Source: Candidatus Zixiibacteriota bacterium (lineage in GTDB: Bacteria; Zixibacteria; MSB-5A5; GN15; FEB-12). From it: a stretch of 46,047 bases of DNA. Shown here in pieces: positions 4,042-38,058 of the stretch. The position numbers were made by a program, and so were the translations under genes. The DNA lies in the NCBI GenBank assembly GCA_020346225.1, contig CP070777.1:1887840-1933886 (forward strand), written 5' to 3'. How positions within the stretch are numbered: position 1 is the stretch's first letter; each line of letters begins with the position of its first letter. Under the pieces are notes generated by a model that was not told the origin of the DNA, ran no database searches, and saw only the letters and a program-made list of their open reading frames with translations.

Positions 4042-5961
4042 ATGGTAACGAAGCAGGCTCGTCCCAGCACTGGCTTTACTCGGTGCGCTGTATGTAAGAT
4101 CGACCTTAAAGGCAGATTTGTCTATCTGGACGAAAAGGTCGAAAACCTCCTCGGTTTCTCCAAAGAAGAGTTGTTCGGCAAACCCTTGCAGGAGTTCGTG
4201 GACGGGTCCTCCCAACAACTGATCGAAGACCTCCTTGCCCAGCGAAATCATTACGAGACTTTCTACGACACCACTTCGGTTGCCCTGGTGCATCGCGATG
4301 GATCCACGGTCAACGCACGGGCCATTGTCTCGCTCAATTTCATCGCTGGCAACCCCGTCAACTTCCAGCTCATCCTCGATTGCCCCGATGCCGCGGGCAT
4401 AGTTCGTCCGGGCAGTGCCGCCGACACCGACTTTCGTTCCCTGGTGGCAAACCTGCTCGAAAGAGGACAGGACCCTGACCTGAAGTTATTTCTGGAAATG
4501 CTCTGTCCGCTCGTACGAGCCGAGAAAGGCTGCCTTTATCTTATAAGCGAATCGGGTCTTGACCCGGTGTGGTCGGTTTCGGGCGAAGGTGGCGATGCCC
4601 TGGCCCTCGGGTCGATACCCGATACCGGCCGGCTGCACCAGCGGGTCGCCGGTGGCGAAGAAGAATACTCCTTCGTCAATCAGAAGAACGTGCAGAAAGT
4701 GATCGAGGAGGACGGTACGGCTCCGTCCGAATATGTCGCCCGTATCCAGCTTCAGACCGGCGAGAGCTATCTCCTGCGCCTGTTCTTCTCTGACGACTTC
4801 GATCATCAGGCGGCCGCCGTCTCCGTTGCCGACGCCCGGATGGCCCTGAACCTCGCTTGCCGCGTGTGGGGTGGATCCGGCGGGGAAGAGGCCGAGGGAG
4901 TGTTCGACATCAAGTTCACCGTCGGCTTTCTCGACTCACTCGGCATAGCCGCTTTTCTCATCGACTCTGAAGGCGACGTCGTCGGATACAACCCGTCCAT
5001 GTTGAAGGTCCTTCCCCAACCCAACCTGGAGGGAAGCTACCTTCGGCCGCTGGACAATCTGCTCCGGCAGAGCCGGTCAGGGACCAAAGAACGAATCGTT
5101 GAATACATCACCGGTACGCAACAGGGCGTGGCCGCAACTGAGGACCTCAGCCTTATAATCAAAACCCCCGCCGGGGAGATTGCCCGGCTGGTCGTAATGA
5201 GACTCGGCGATTCGGCAAAGGACCTCAGCAGTTGCTTTGTCCTGGTTCCGGAACGCTCAGCCGACATCCGGCCCGCCCGCGATTCCGACGCTGATGATTC
5301 CGTGGCAATTTTGCCCGTCCTCGAAGGCGCCGCCCGCTGGCTCAAAACCCAGATCGCCCAGACCGATACTCTGGCGCATCGCTTTTACAACGGCCTGGGT
5401 GATGAAGGCAACGACCTTCTGGGCAAACTCAGTGCCGACACCAAACGGGCAATGCAGTGCGTGAAAGCCCTGAGGCGTTTCACCCGGATCATGAAGAAGT
5501 CCGGCCAGCCTCGCCTGGTCGATTTGAACCTGCTGGTCCGGCAACGACTTGATGACCTGCTCTCGACTCACCATGGTGCTGAAGTGGTCTGCCGTTATGA
5601 TGACCTGCCCAAGGTCAAGGCCAACCAGAGACTCCTCTCCGAAGTGCTTTATAACCTGCTTTCGAATTGCCTTAAGTATAACGACAAAGGCAAGATTGAA
5701 ATCAGTGTCTCAGCCGAGGTGAGCGACGGCACATGCCGCCTGACGGTTTCGGATAACGGCTTCGGGATCGACGCCCGGCACCTGCCCCGTGTTTTCGACC
5801 TTTTCTATCGGGCCCCGGACAAGCGGGTTGAGAAAACTCCCGGGTCGGGCCTCGGGCTGGTGTTCGCAAAGAAAATAGCAGAATCTATGGGTGGCGACAT
5901 CACCGTCACCGCGACCGATGGGGAGGGTACGTCGGTAAGACTCTCATTCCCAACCGGGTGA
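4042..5961 (+). CDS. PAS-containing histidine-kinase-like protein with no recognisable H-box histidine
   Basis: A 639-residue soluble sensor with no membrane helices. An N-terminal PAS-like domain (about 12-115, 'VYLDEKVENLLGFSKEELFG') is followed by a possible GAF-like domain (130-275) and a second PAS-like domain (295-400). Next come a two-helix DHp-like stretch (425-490) and a complete HATPase domain: N-box 'LLSNCLKY' (Asn542), G1 DNGFG (571-575) and G2 GSGLGL (601-606). Aligned by eye to phytochrome-type kinases, the H-box position falls in 'VLEGAARWLK', where Gly429 replaces His; the nearest His (446) is a helix away. It may be a pseudokinase or phosphorylate another partner. The receiver gene follows 6 bases later, so the two are surely cotranscribed. 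Confidence 0.82.
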   Translation: MVTKQARPSTGFTRCAVCKIDLKGRFVYLDEKVENLLGFSKEELFGKPLQEFVDGSSQQLIEDLLAQRNHYETFYDTTSVALVHRDGSTVNARAIVSLNFIAGNPVNFQLILDCPDAAGIVRPGSAADTDFRSLVANLLERGQDPDLKLFLEMLCPLVRAEKGCLYLISESGLDPVWSVSGEGGDALALGSIPDTGRLHQRVAGGEEEYSFVNQKNVQKVIEEDGTAPSEYVARIQLQTGESYLLRLFFSDDFDHQAAAVSVADARMALNLACRVWGGSGGEEAEGVFDIKFTVGFLDSLGIAAFLIDSEGDVVGYNPSMLKVLPQPNLEGSYLRPLDNLLRQSRSGTKERIVEYITGTQQGVAATEDLSLIIKTPAGEIARLVVMRLGDSAKDLSSCFVLVPERSADIRPARDSDADDSVAILPVLEGAARWLKTQIAQTDTLAHRFYNGLGDEGNDLLGKLSADTKRAMQCVKALRRFTRIMKKSGQPRLVDLNLLVRQRLDDLLSTHHGAEVVCRYDDLPKVKANQRLLSEVLYNLLSNCLKYNDKGKIEISVSAEVSDGTCRLTVSDNGFGIDARHLPRVFDLFYRAPDKRVEKTPGSGLGLVFAKKIAESMGGDITVTATDGEGTSVRLSFPTG

Positions 5962-5967
5962 ATATAA

Positions 5968-6678
5968 ATGGCGCACGGCCATAGGGACAGACCGAGAATC
6001 TTGATATTCGAAGCAAACCGGGATTGCAGTCAAATTGTCCTCAGCCATATCAACCGGAGACTCCGCGACTCCTCCGTCACCATTTGCTCCGGCCTCGACC
6101 AACTTACTTCCGTCGCGACCTCGGCCGGCTTTGATGTCGCCATCGTCGACTTTCCGGCAAAGAACCCTGATGGTCTGGCTATCGTCGAATCGCTTCGCCG
6201 CAGCGACCCGAATCTGGCAATCGCGGCGGTGGTTGAGAATGTCACCGAAGACCTCATGAAACGACTCTTTGACCTCGGCTGTGAGGAACTTCTCGTCAAA
6301 GACAGTTCATTTTACCGGGTCGTGCCGCAACTGATCGACAGCCTGTATCGGCGCCGGCAAAAGCGGGTCCGGGAGTCCTCGGTCGCGTCACCCCCCCAGG
6401 TCCGCCCGGCCGCATCGGCACAGCGAATAATCAGAGATTTCTCCCGAGAGATTAACGTTCCCCTCGCCCGCATTCTCGATGCGGCCGATACAATTCTACG
6501 CAACCCTGCCCGCCGCGACTTCGAGCTGCAAAACAGGATTAGAAATATCCGGAACGCTGCCCGTCAAATCAAAAACTCTCTTGAAGCCTTTGCGGGCAAA
6601 GCGGTTCCGAACGAAGGCGGCACCGTTACCACTTCCCGTCGCAGGTATGAACTAACAAAGCATCCCTTCGGCCGCTAA
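5968..6678 (+). CDS. Receiver-domain protein with degenerate DHp-like C-terminus
   Basis: A 236-residue protein. Residues 10-130 look like a CheY-type receiver domain with putative phosphoacceptor Asp61 (AIVDFP) and Lys111 (LLVKDSS). The acidic pair of the pocket is reduced to Glu15 (ILIFEANRD), and the usual Thr/Ser is absent ('AAVVENV'). After a variable linker, 'FSREINVPLARILDAADTIL' (158-177) reads like the H-box helix of a histidine kinase (S-H-E-L-x-T-P-L pattern) with Arg160 in place of His. A second helix ('LQNRIRNIRNAARQI') follows, but there is no ATPase domain. This suggests a protein that dimerises through a dead DHp fold, perhaps with the kinase-like protein encoded just upstream. 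No DNA-binding domain is visible, so a transcription-factor role is unlikely. Confidence 0.75.
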   Translation: MAHGHRDRPRILIFEANRDCSQIVLSHINRRLRDSSVTICSGLDQLTSVATSAGFDVAIVDFPAKNPDGLAIVESLRRSDPNLAIAAVVENVTEDLMKRLFDLGCEELLVKDSSFYRVVPQLIDSLYRRRQKRVRESSVASPPQVRPAASAQRIIRDFSREINVPLARILDAADTILRNPARRDFELQNRIRNIRNAARQIKNSLEAFAGKAVPNEGGTVTTSRRRYELTKHPFGR

Positions 6679-6700: not shown

Positions 6701-6728
6701 TTGACAAATCAAACGAAAGGCGTATTCT
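6701..6728 (+). promoter_or_regulatory. Sigma-70-type promoter for the yicC-gmk-rpoZ-topA run
   Basis: A perfect -35 TTGACA (6701-6706) and a -10 TATTCT (6723-6728, four of six matches) are separated by 16 bases. The predicted transcript starts near 6735, giving a leader of about 27 bases with AGGTGG ahead of the yicC ATG at 6762. The preceding gene ends at 6678, so this begins a new transcription unit. Confidence 0.65.
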
Positions 6729-6761: not shown

Positions 6762-7637
6762 ATGAATTCTATGACCGGTTTCGGTAAAGCCGAAGTCAGC
6801 ACCAGGTTTGGAAAGCTTACTGTCGAAATATCGAGCGTCAACAATCGCTTCCTTGAGATTACCCAGCGCCTGCCCCGTTCATTGACAGCCTTTGAGCCCA
6901 GACTGCGCGATCTGGTAACATCGAAAATAAGTCGGGGTAAAGTTAGTCTGTATGTCGGCTTCGACGAAAACGACAGTGCCTCGGGTTCCTATAGTATTAA
7001 TGTGGATGCCGTCAAGGCCTATCATCGCCAGTTGACCCGGCTCGCCAGACAGCTTAAGATAAAGGATACCGTCACCGTCCGTGACCTCCTGCTGTTGCCC
7101 GATGTCGCCGCTCCGAAGCAGAAAGACCTCGATGAGCGGCTTGTCTGGAATAACCTCCAGAGAACTACCCGCAAGGCTCTGGTCGAACTGGTCAAAATGC
7201 GGCGCAAAGAGGGACTGGCCATGGCCAGGGATATGACCCGGCGCATCCAGGCTCTCGGCCGCGATGCCGCCCGGATCAAGGGTCGTGCCGGCGTGGCGGT
7301 TGATGCATATCGCAAAAAGCTCACCAGGCGGTTGGATGAGCTTCTGGAGTCTCCCGTCCCTGACTACGTCAAGATCGAGGAACAGATCGCCCTTATGGCC
7401 GAGAAGACCGACATCTCCGAAGAGTGTACGCGCTTTATGAGTCACATTAACCAGTACCGGACAGCCATGAAGGAAGGCAGGCCGGTCGGCAAGAAGCTCA
7501 ACTTTATCCTTCAGGAACTCAACCGGGAAGCTAACACCATCGCTTCCAAGTCGACCGATTCCCGAATTTCGTCGCTGGTCATCGGCGTCAAGGAAGAGAT
7601 TGAGAAAATCCGCGAATTGGTGCAGAACGTTGAATAG
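6762..7637 (+). CDS. yicC: YicC family endoribonuclease-like protein
   Basis: A 291-residue protein of the YicC/YloC family, whose E. coli member is an RNase implicated in small-RNA turnover. The diagnostic N-terminus is present (MNSMTGFGKAEVSTRFGKL, then 'VEISSVNNRFLEITQRLPRSL'). So is the conserved C-terminal DUF1732 region 'KLNFILQELNREANTIASKS' (about 246-265) followed by 'VKEEIEKIREQ'-like residues. Length equals the family norm (about 290). The ATG at 6762 is preceded by AGGTGG. The next gene is gmk, 6 bases after the stop; yicC-gmk-rpoZ is a widely conserved order, which supports all three calls. Confidence 0.93.
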   Translation: MNSMTGFGKAEVSTRFGKLTVEISSVNNRFLEITQRLPRSLTAFEPRLRDLVTSKISRGKVSLYVGFDENDSASGSYSINVDAVKAYHRQLTRLARQLKIKDTVTVRDLLLLPDVAAPKQKDLDERLVWNNLQRTTRKALVELVKMRRKEGLAMARDMTRRIQALGRDAARIKGRAGVAVDAYRKKLTRRLDELLESPVPDYVKIEEQIALMAEKTDISEECTRFMSHINQYRTAMKEGRPVGKKLNFILQELNREANTIASKSTDSRISSLVIGVKEEIEKIRELVQNVE

Positions 7638-36357: not shown

Positions 36358-38058
36358 ATGTCCAAAGAGTCGTTGTACAGGATTGGCTGGTTTCTCCCTC
36401 TCCGCCTCGCCCAGTATGTCGTCCTCTTCGCCGTAGTCGTCTTCTGGATGAACTATCCGTCCTACGTCCAGCTGCAGTTCATCCTCTATTCGATTTGCAC
36501 CCTGGTTTTTACCCTCCTTCTCGCCGTCGGCCGTAGACATGAACTGGGTGCCGCCACGGCTGCCGTAGTTGGGTTGCAGTTTCTCTTCGAGGTCGTTATC
36601 GAATCCACCATCATCTTCTCCACTGGCAGCATCAATTCACCCTTCTCCGCCCTGTTCGTCCTGACCATCGTTTCTGCCGCCCTGGTCTATCGCCTGCTCG
36701 GTACCTTGATTGTCGCTTCGCTTGTGTCAACCGCCTACGCCTTCATCATCTGGATGGGCCTCTACGGGACTGATAACCCCAACCTGTCGGTCCAGGCGCT
36801 GAAAACCATCTTCTCCAACGACGACCGCGCTTTCTACTCAATCTTACTGCACATCCTGATATTCTATCTGGTGGCGTTTATCTCGGGATATCTGGCCGAA
36901 CGACTTAAACAGCGTGACCGCCAGCTGGCTGACACCTCGCTCGCCCTGAAACAGGCCCGCTTGGAAACCGACGACATCCTCCGCCACCTCAACTCCGGGC
37001 TGCTTACGGTCGACGCCGCCGGCTCCATTATCTACTTCAATCGGGCCGCCGAGAGAATTCTCGGCTACCGGGAGGAAGATGTTAAAGGCATGCACTGCGA
37101 GGAAGTCTTCGCCGAAAGAATGCCCCGACTGGCCGAGTGTCTCATGGATGGCATCCGCGACCGACTCGAACACCCCCGCACCGAAGTGGAAATCACGAGC
37201 GTCGCCGCCGAGCGCCTGCCGCTGGGCCTGTCCACCTCCATTCTGACCGGTCCCGACCACCGCATGAGAGGTATAATCGCCATTTTCTCGGACCTTACCG
37301 ACGCCAAGAGACTTGAGGCCAAGGTCAGAACCGCCGACCGCCTCGCCGCCGTCGGCGAACTCTCGGCCTCGATAGCTCATGAAATTCGCAATCCTCTGGC
37401 CGCCATATCCGGCTCGGTCGAGGTTCTCAAGCAAGAGATTCAGGTTGACGGCGAAAATGAGCAGCTTATGGATCTCATCGTCAAAGAGTCGGACCGCCTC
37501 ACCAAGATTCTGACGGAGTTTCTCACCTACGCCCGTATCGACCGGGGCGCTTACAATAAGGTGGAACTGTGTCACCTCGTCGGCGACGTTGTCGAGATTC
37601 TCTATCACCACCCGTCGTTCAGTGAGCGTATTTCGGTGAACATACGGTCCGACGATTCCGTGACATATGTGGTGGGTGACGAAAACCTGATCAAGCAGCT
37701 GCTTCTCAATCTCGCCGTCAACACCTGCGAGTCTTTCGATGAAAACAAGGGTAACCTGACCTTCCGGATCGTTTCGCAGACCGAAAACAACCGGGTCGTG
37801 CTGTATGTTAGCGACGACGGCCCCGGCATATCGCCGGAACTGCTGAAGCGGATTTATGAACCGTTCTTTTCTACCAAGCGCGAAGGAACCGGCCTGGGCC
37901 TCTCCATTGTCCATCGGATCTGTACCGCCCTGAAGCTCAAGATTGATGTCTTGTCGCGGGTCGGCGAGGGAACGACTTTTGTTATAGAGTTCGCCGCCTG
38001 CCTTCACCATCAACCCGGCGAGGATACGAAGTCGGCTGCATCCGCCGCTTCAGTATAG
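36358..38058 (+). CDS. PilS-like membrane sensor histidine kinase
   Basis: A 566-residue kinase. Residues 10-180 form about six membrane helices, as in PilS. A PAS domain (205-315, 'ILRHLNSGLLTVDAAGSIIY', 'AERILGYREEDVKG') precedes the HisKA domain with phosphoacceptor His341 (ASIAHEIRNPL). The HATPase domain has 'LLLNLAVNTCESF', DDGPGI and GTGLGLS. PilS senses pilin level in the membrane and phosphorylates PilR to drive pilA transcription; the architecture and the place after pilC fit, but no pilR-type regulator is adjacent. The ATG at 36358 has no ribosome binding site because a hairpin occupies that place; the next in-frame Met is residue 31. Confident as a kinase, moderate as PilS. Confidence 0.88.
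   Translation: MSKESLYRIGWFLPLRLAQYVVLFAVVVFWMNYPSYVQLQFILYSICTLVFTLLLAVGRRHELGAATAAVVGLQFLFEVVIESTIIFSTGSINSPFSALFVLTIVSAALVYRLLGTLIVASLVSTAYAFIIWMGLYGTDNPNLSVQALKTIFSNDDRAFYSILLHILIFYLVAFISGYLAERLKQRDRQLADTSLALKQARLETDDILRHLNSGLLTVDAAGSIIYFNRAAERILGYREEDVKGMHCEEVFAERMPRLAECLMDGIRDRLEHPRTEVEITSVAAERLPLGLSTSILTGPDHRMRGIIAIFSDLTDAKRLEAKVRTADRLAAVGELSASIAHEIRNPLAAISGSVEVLKQEIQVDGENEQLMDLIVKESDRLTKILTEFLTYARIDRGAYNKVELCHLVGDVVEILYHHPSFSERISVNIRSDDSVTYVVGDENLIKQLLLNLAVNTCESFDENKGNLTFRIVSQTENNRVVLYVSDDGPGISPELLKRIYEPFFSTKREGTGLGLSIVHRICTALKLKIDVLSRVGEGTTFVIEFAACLHHQPGEDTKSAASAASV

Follow-up and report, generated by a model that had tools for sequence, protein, structure and literature searches.

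A kinase-like sensor and a receiver-DHp protein, both without a phosphoacceptor histidine, encoded side by side in a Candidatus Zixiibacteriota genome

Two neighbouring genes of a Candidatus Zixiibacteriota bacterium encode a kinase-like sensor, here called K, and a receiver protein, here called R, each of which carries a two-helix hairpin of the DHp type with no phosphoacceptor histidine. The two are best read as a pseudokinase similar to DivL and RetS and an LvrB-like partner that lacks a CA (ATPase) domain. Phosphotransfer through either DHp is unlikely because both hairpins lack the histidine; K and R would instead be a co-inherited pair that signals by conformation or binding, with phosphohistidine out of play, a reading to which we give a probability of about one half. 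The linked orthologs of the pair differ in which kinase parts they retain, and the evidence presented here concerns both the state of the pair in this genome and its history in the Zixibacteria.

The pair lies in a window of 46,047 nucleotides, which is the whole stretch of DNA analysed (contig CP070777.1, forward-strand positions 1,887,840 to 1,933,886) and to which all positions below refer; the genome is a single 3.18-Mb contig. K (639 amino acids, positions 4042-5961) and R (236 amino acids, positions 5968-6678) are plus-strand open reading frames separated by 6 nt, in agreement with an earlier note made from the sequence alone, and both were delimited by ORF calling, Pfam, and alignment (for R, also by a structure model). 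They are followed by yicC (6762-7637, also on the plus strand) and then by gmk (7644). By genome comparison, yicC is a conserved downstream neighbour in two bacterial families and stands outside the pair. A promoter-like match before yicC (6701-6728) was set aside, as the region holds three such sites versus 1.5 expected. A single contig scan that reached beyond the phylum places the nearest named relatives of K in metagenome-assembled genomes of Candidatus Zixiibacteriota. The window also encodes a second histidine kinase (approximately 37354-37992), which scores 66 bits against HisKA and 78 bits against HATPase_c and is normal, unlike K.

Domain structure and phosphoacceptor sites of the two proteins

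K begins with a PAS domain (PAS1) and a middle part of low conservation; after these come another PAS-like region, two helices, and finally the CA domain. PAS1 occupies residues 12-108 (4075-4365; Pfam and ortholog comparison) and includes the motif RCAVCKIDLKGRFVY; its Cys15 is invariant and its Cys18 nearly so (C-x-x-C-K). The second PAS-like region, with approximate boundaries at residues 291-400 (4912-5241), was read from the sequence and falls below the Pfam threshold. The CA domain (residues 528-638; 5623-5955) matches HATPase_c at 92.5 bits (E = 2.9e-26) and has intact ATP-binding motifs, also seen in alignment (N542, DNGFG at 571-575, and GSGLGL at 601-606), so the ATPase domain is complete, as had been proposed. 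Compared with HisKA histidine kinases, K thus has a CA domain with its N, G1, and G2 boxes and lacks the H-box histidine; no HisKA-type family is reported in K by Pfam, even at E ≤ 1.

The position of the missing histidine was located by two routes. When a profile of 28 K orthologs is aligned with solved kinases in the PDB, the histidine of ZraS falls at profile position 426; with the register fixed at the N-box asparagine (profile 540 = window residue 542), this site corresponds to residue 428, a glutamate (codon GAA, 5323-5325). A MAFFT alignment with His-bearing orthologs also places Glu428 in the histidine column. Both routes rule out Gly429, the residue given in the earlier note, which was off by one; its conclusion that K has no H-box histidine is unaffected and is upheld by the profile alignment, the MAFFT alignment, and the absent HisKA match. 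An AlphaFold2 model of K residues 400-639 (pLDDT 78) contains a DHp-type hairpin with helices at 419-447 and 449-485 (5296-5496; also placed by profile alignment), and the kinase structures that it matches in Foldseek include ZraS, HK853, DivL, and RetS. Model and alignments together give K the character of DivL-type proteins, namely a DHp-CA fold whose histidine site is occupied by a different residue. A shifted alignment with His446 (codon CAT, 5377-5379) at the phosphoacceptor site is ruled out by the profile alignment and the model, in which this residue lies 18 positions beyond the site, at the end of helix 1.

R consists of a receiver domain followed by a DHp hairpin. The receiver (approximately residues 9-132; 5992-6363), supported by Pfam, alignments, and model, scores 30.0 bits versus a Response_reg cut-off of 30.2. 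The alignment bears out the earlier identification of its active-site residues Asp61 (6148-6150) and Lys111 (6298-6300). In the R of the window, an alanine replaces one residue of the acidic pair and the conserved Thr/Ser is gone, which makes it less certain here than in sister proteins that Asp61 can be phosphorylated. The HisKA match of R is weak (13.4 bits, residues 152-203, versus a cut-off of 26.9), and HisKA is matched by 39 of the 42 R orthologs. The profile of these orthologs aligns through receiver, linker, and DHp with LvrB, a Leptospira Rec-DHp-CA kinase that is its best solved relative (8vc9), and Arg160 (codon CGA, 6445-6447) falls on the LvrB phosphoacceptor histidine; residues D56 and H161 of LvrB correspond to D61 and R160 of R (residue numbers from PMC13269768). 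The ortholog and LvrB alignments thus confirm that the H-box-like helix of R has arginine in place of histidine. An AlphaFold2 model of R (pLDDT 73; like that of K, built from a four-sequence alignment) shows the receiver and a hairpin with helices at 147-178 and 185-210 (6406-6597). Its structure matches are receivers, and the structure search found no specific match for the helical part. With DHp-like hairpins in both models, the claim that both proteins keep a DHp fold without the histidine stands.

Distribution, history, and constraint in the Zixibacteria

In a survey of 132 Zixibacteria genomes, R, yicC, and PAS1 were searched for and the region upstream of yicC was read. Four families are relevant: that of the window (f1), its sister (f2), f3, and f4; the genus of the window (g1) is represented by four genomes. 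K is located upstream of yicC in f1 and f2, and R directly follows K in all f2 members seen and in most of f1, while several genomes have K with no adjacent R. In f4, K and R are neighbours at a second, unrelated locus. Adjacency at two unrelated loci argues that the proteins work together as a real pair, and it rules out linkage as a side effect of the yicC neighbourhood. The PAS1 protein at this other f4 locus again stands beside a DHp protein, and both may be reduced; in G088, for example, a 265-aa PAS1 protein is followed after 11 bases by a 151-aa DHp protein with the motif HEINNPL and no receiver. Judged from these sequences, the comparison argues that the conserved core of the pair would be PAS1 together with the DHp protein. 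A single copy of the K-type PAS1 occurs in 69 of the 132 genomes (f1, f2, and f4), and it persists even where the kinase part and R are gone. In one genome (G058:C50, locus L082), a single TAG stop interrupts the yicC open reading frame.

In f2, all five orthologs whose sequence spans the histidine column of K have histidine there, within AHDLRAPL or a closely similar motif, whereas f1 proteins never do; likewise, Pfam HisKA is matched by 5/5 of the f2 K proteins scanned and by 0/28 of those from f1 at E ≤ 0.01. In the yicC tree, f1 is a clade (SH-aLRT 98). Mapped on this tree, the histidine of K changes once, CA intactness six times, the histidine of R three times, the aspartate of R five times, and the presence of R six times, counts that give no direction by themselves and that supply too few independent changes for independent-pair trait tests. 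K appears to have lost its histidine once, at the base of f1.

The corresponding site of R is histidine, in an HEINNPL-type box, in 36 of the 42 orthologs from f1-f3. In the clades that lack it, the residue is asparagine in the three genomes of genus g30 and arginine in three of the four that represent the genus of the window, which rules out Arg160 as a sequencing or assembly error. The remaining genome of that genus (G027) keeps histidine in the R160 column, with the rest of its H-box altered. The double loss of histidine is a late state of one genus, and an R without histidine is not the rule for the K-R pair. In most His-bearing R proteins, the DHp is followed by a C-terminal tail resembling T-x-x-G-x-M-I-D (e.g., L078:3890-4630); this tail is missing in both f1 genera whose R lost its histidine (g1 and g30).

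Conservation is uneven along both proteins. The K proteins of the window's genus are only 43-46% identical to that of the window, and mean pairwise identity within the genus is 73% for PAS1, 48% for CA, and 30% for DHp, making PAS1 the most conserved part of K and DHp its least conserved domain. The ATP-binding positions checked, which were picked by known role before counting, are invariant in all four genomes (8/8, versus 38 of 148 CA columns; hypergeometric 1e-5), as are D61 and K111 of R. Mean pairwise identity of R is 46% in the receiver and 36% in the DHp within this genus, the reverse of the other f1 genera (22% and 44%, respectively).

Proposed mechanism, known systems, and rival explanations

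In the mechanism proposed here, PAS1 of K would act as the sensor and the DHp helices of K as rods for dimerisation and transmission, while the CA domain may bind ATP as a conformational element. The receiver of R could still accept phosphate on Asp61, with another kinase as its most likely source, and the DHp hairpin of R may offer a surface for dimerisation or docking. Signalling, in a presumed direction, would consist of altered shape or altered contacts among K, R, and probably a third protein, by analogy with DivL and RetS. Gene linkage is the basis on which we infer direct contact between K and R. The mixed dimer of K-DHp and R-DHp suggested in the earlier note is possible but unsupported; the covariation of K-DHp and R-DHp distances beyond the species tree is weak and not significant (r = 0.20, p = 0.08, 19 genomes). 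The broader suggestion of that note, that conformational or direct signalling replaces phosphotransfer, is favoured by the His-less hairpins and by the DivL and RetS precedents. Across an order of Zixibacteria, the conserved two-protein module might tentatively be described as having a PAS sensor and a CA-less DHp partner for its core, with the ATPase, the receiver, and finally phosphohistidine having proved dispensable; in the window's genus this would leave an ATP-bound pseudokinase and a phospho-receiver facing each other with no phosphohistidine.

RetS of Pseudomonas is a membrane protein, and its partner GacS is a complete hybrid kinase. In this system, direct contact between two kinase-type proteins conveys the signal, and the model of K matches RetS; unlike GacS, however, the partner of K is a receiver-DHp protein without CA. 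The closest proven case to K is DivL of Caulobacter, which likewise has PAS domains followed by a DHp and a CA domain in which the histidine is replaced, in this case by tyrosine. DivL binds a receiver protein and does its work without needing kinase activity, and its relatives in divergent species have often lost DHp-CA (PMC4211667). The two also differ: DivL keeps the remainder of its H-box, whereas K lost the entire box, and the DivL partner DivK is a single-domain receiver, whereas R has its own DHp. In contrast to LvrB, which is an active kinase with a DHp histidine, R has no CA and, in the window, no histidine. CA-less HisKA proteins made up 3.66% of HisKA proteins in one count (PMC3591291). 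Open-licence papers about two-component signalling in Zixibacteria, or about response regulators that carry HisKA but lack HATPase, yielded nothing on the K/R pair and no biochemistry on any member of the family. His-less pseudokinases were already known.

A serious alternative, although an unlikely one, is a kinase split between two chains, in which the CA domain of K phosphorylates the histidine of a separate CA-less DHp protein. The target could be R itself in lineages with an intact CA and, in the genome of the window, a candidate GAF-DHp protein, from which phosphate might then reach Asp61 of R. The CA site of K is intact and constrained, and its integrity would equally fit kinase activity on another protein; moreover, CheA3/CheA4 and split EnvZ show that two-chain chemistry works (PMC3591291). 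CheA3/CheA4 resemble K and R where K has an intact CA and R has HEINNPL, with CA and phosphoacceptor on two proteins, an arrangement seen on sequence in G041, G019, and G020. They are unlike the window's pair, in which neither protein has a phosphoacceptor (R has Arg160), and the CheA histidine domain belongs to another family. The candidate in the window's genome is a 255-aa GAF-like and DHp protein (G000:C1:3053753-3053989; L131:930-1697, minus strand) with an intact HEVNNPL and no CA; it shares the short C-terminal tail of R orthologs. Of the 132 Zixibacteria genomes, 128 have matches to a DHp-plus-tail profile, and many of these matches lie in open frames of 250-300 aa. DHp matches of this type are spread over most of the phylum, also in families that have no K, and so show no special tie to K. 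Furthermore, HEINNPL persists where K has no CA (g28 and some f4) or a decayed one, indicating that the DHp histidine is independent of the CA of K.

General decay is disfavoured and seems improbable as an account of the pair. It would hold that K and R are losing function in the window's genus and that the histidine losses are part of that degeneration, as the repeated changes across f1 in CA motifs, in the aspartate of R, and in the presence of R beside K would suggest, together with the weak conservation of both DHp regions in the genus. Against it, PAS1 is strongly conserved, both open reading frames are intact in all four genomes, and neither the ATP-binding residues nor those of the receiver site vary, despite the low overall identity of K; invariant CA and receiver sites beside weakly constrained DHp regions are unlike general or uniform decay. 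Least probable is a moved phosphoacceptor, whereby His446, in the motif L-S-H-E-F-Y-N-x-L, would now be the phosphorylated residue. This histidine appears in the very clade from which the canonical one disappeared, ranks with the best-conserved DHp positions of f1 (22 of 31 proteins with a residue there), is absent in f2, and has surroundings resembling an H-box. Its location at the helix tip beside the hairpin, far from the site, makes such a role very unlikely; it is also retained despite decayed CA domains (g16, g17, g25, and g30) and missing in G020, whose CA looks intact.

Significance of the pair

With K and R read as a pseudokinase and its CA-less partner, their linked orthologs form a natural series. 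At one end stands a complete histidine kinase whose partner carries the histidine, at the other a pair in which neither protein has a phosphoacceptor histidine. This series makes it testable which parts of a kinase a two-component pair can do without and yet transmit a signal, and whether a CA domain binds ATP for any purpose other than phosphotransfer. The survey also brings out CA-less DHp proteins as a class that is widespread and uncharacterised in the Zixibacteria phylum.
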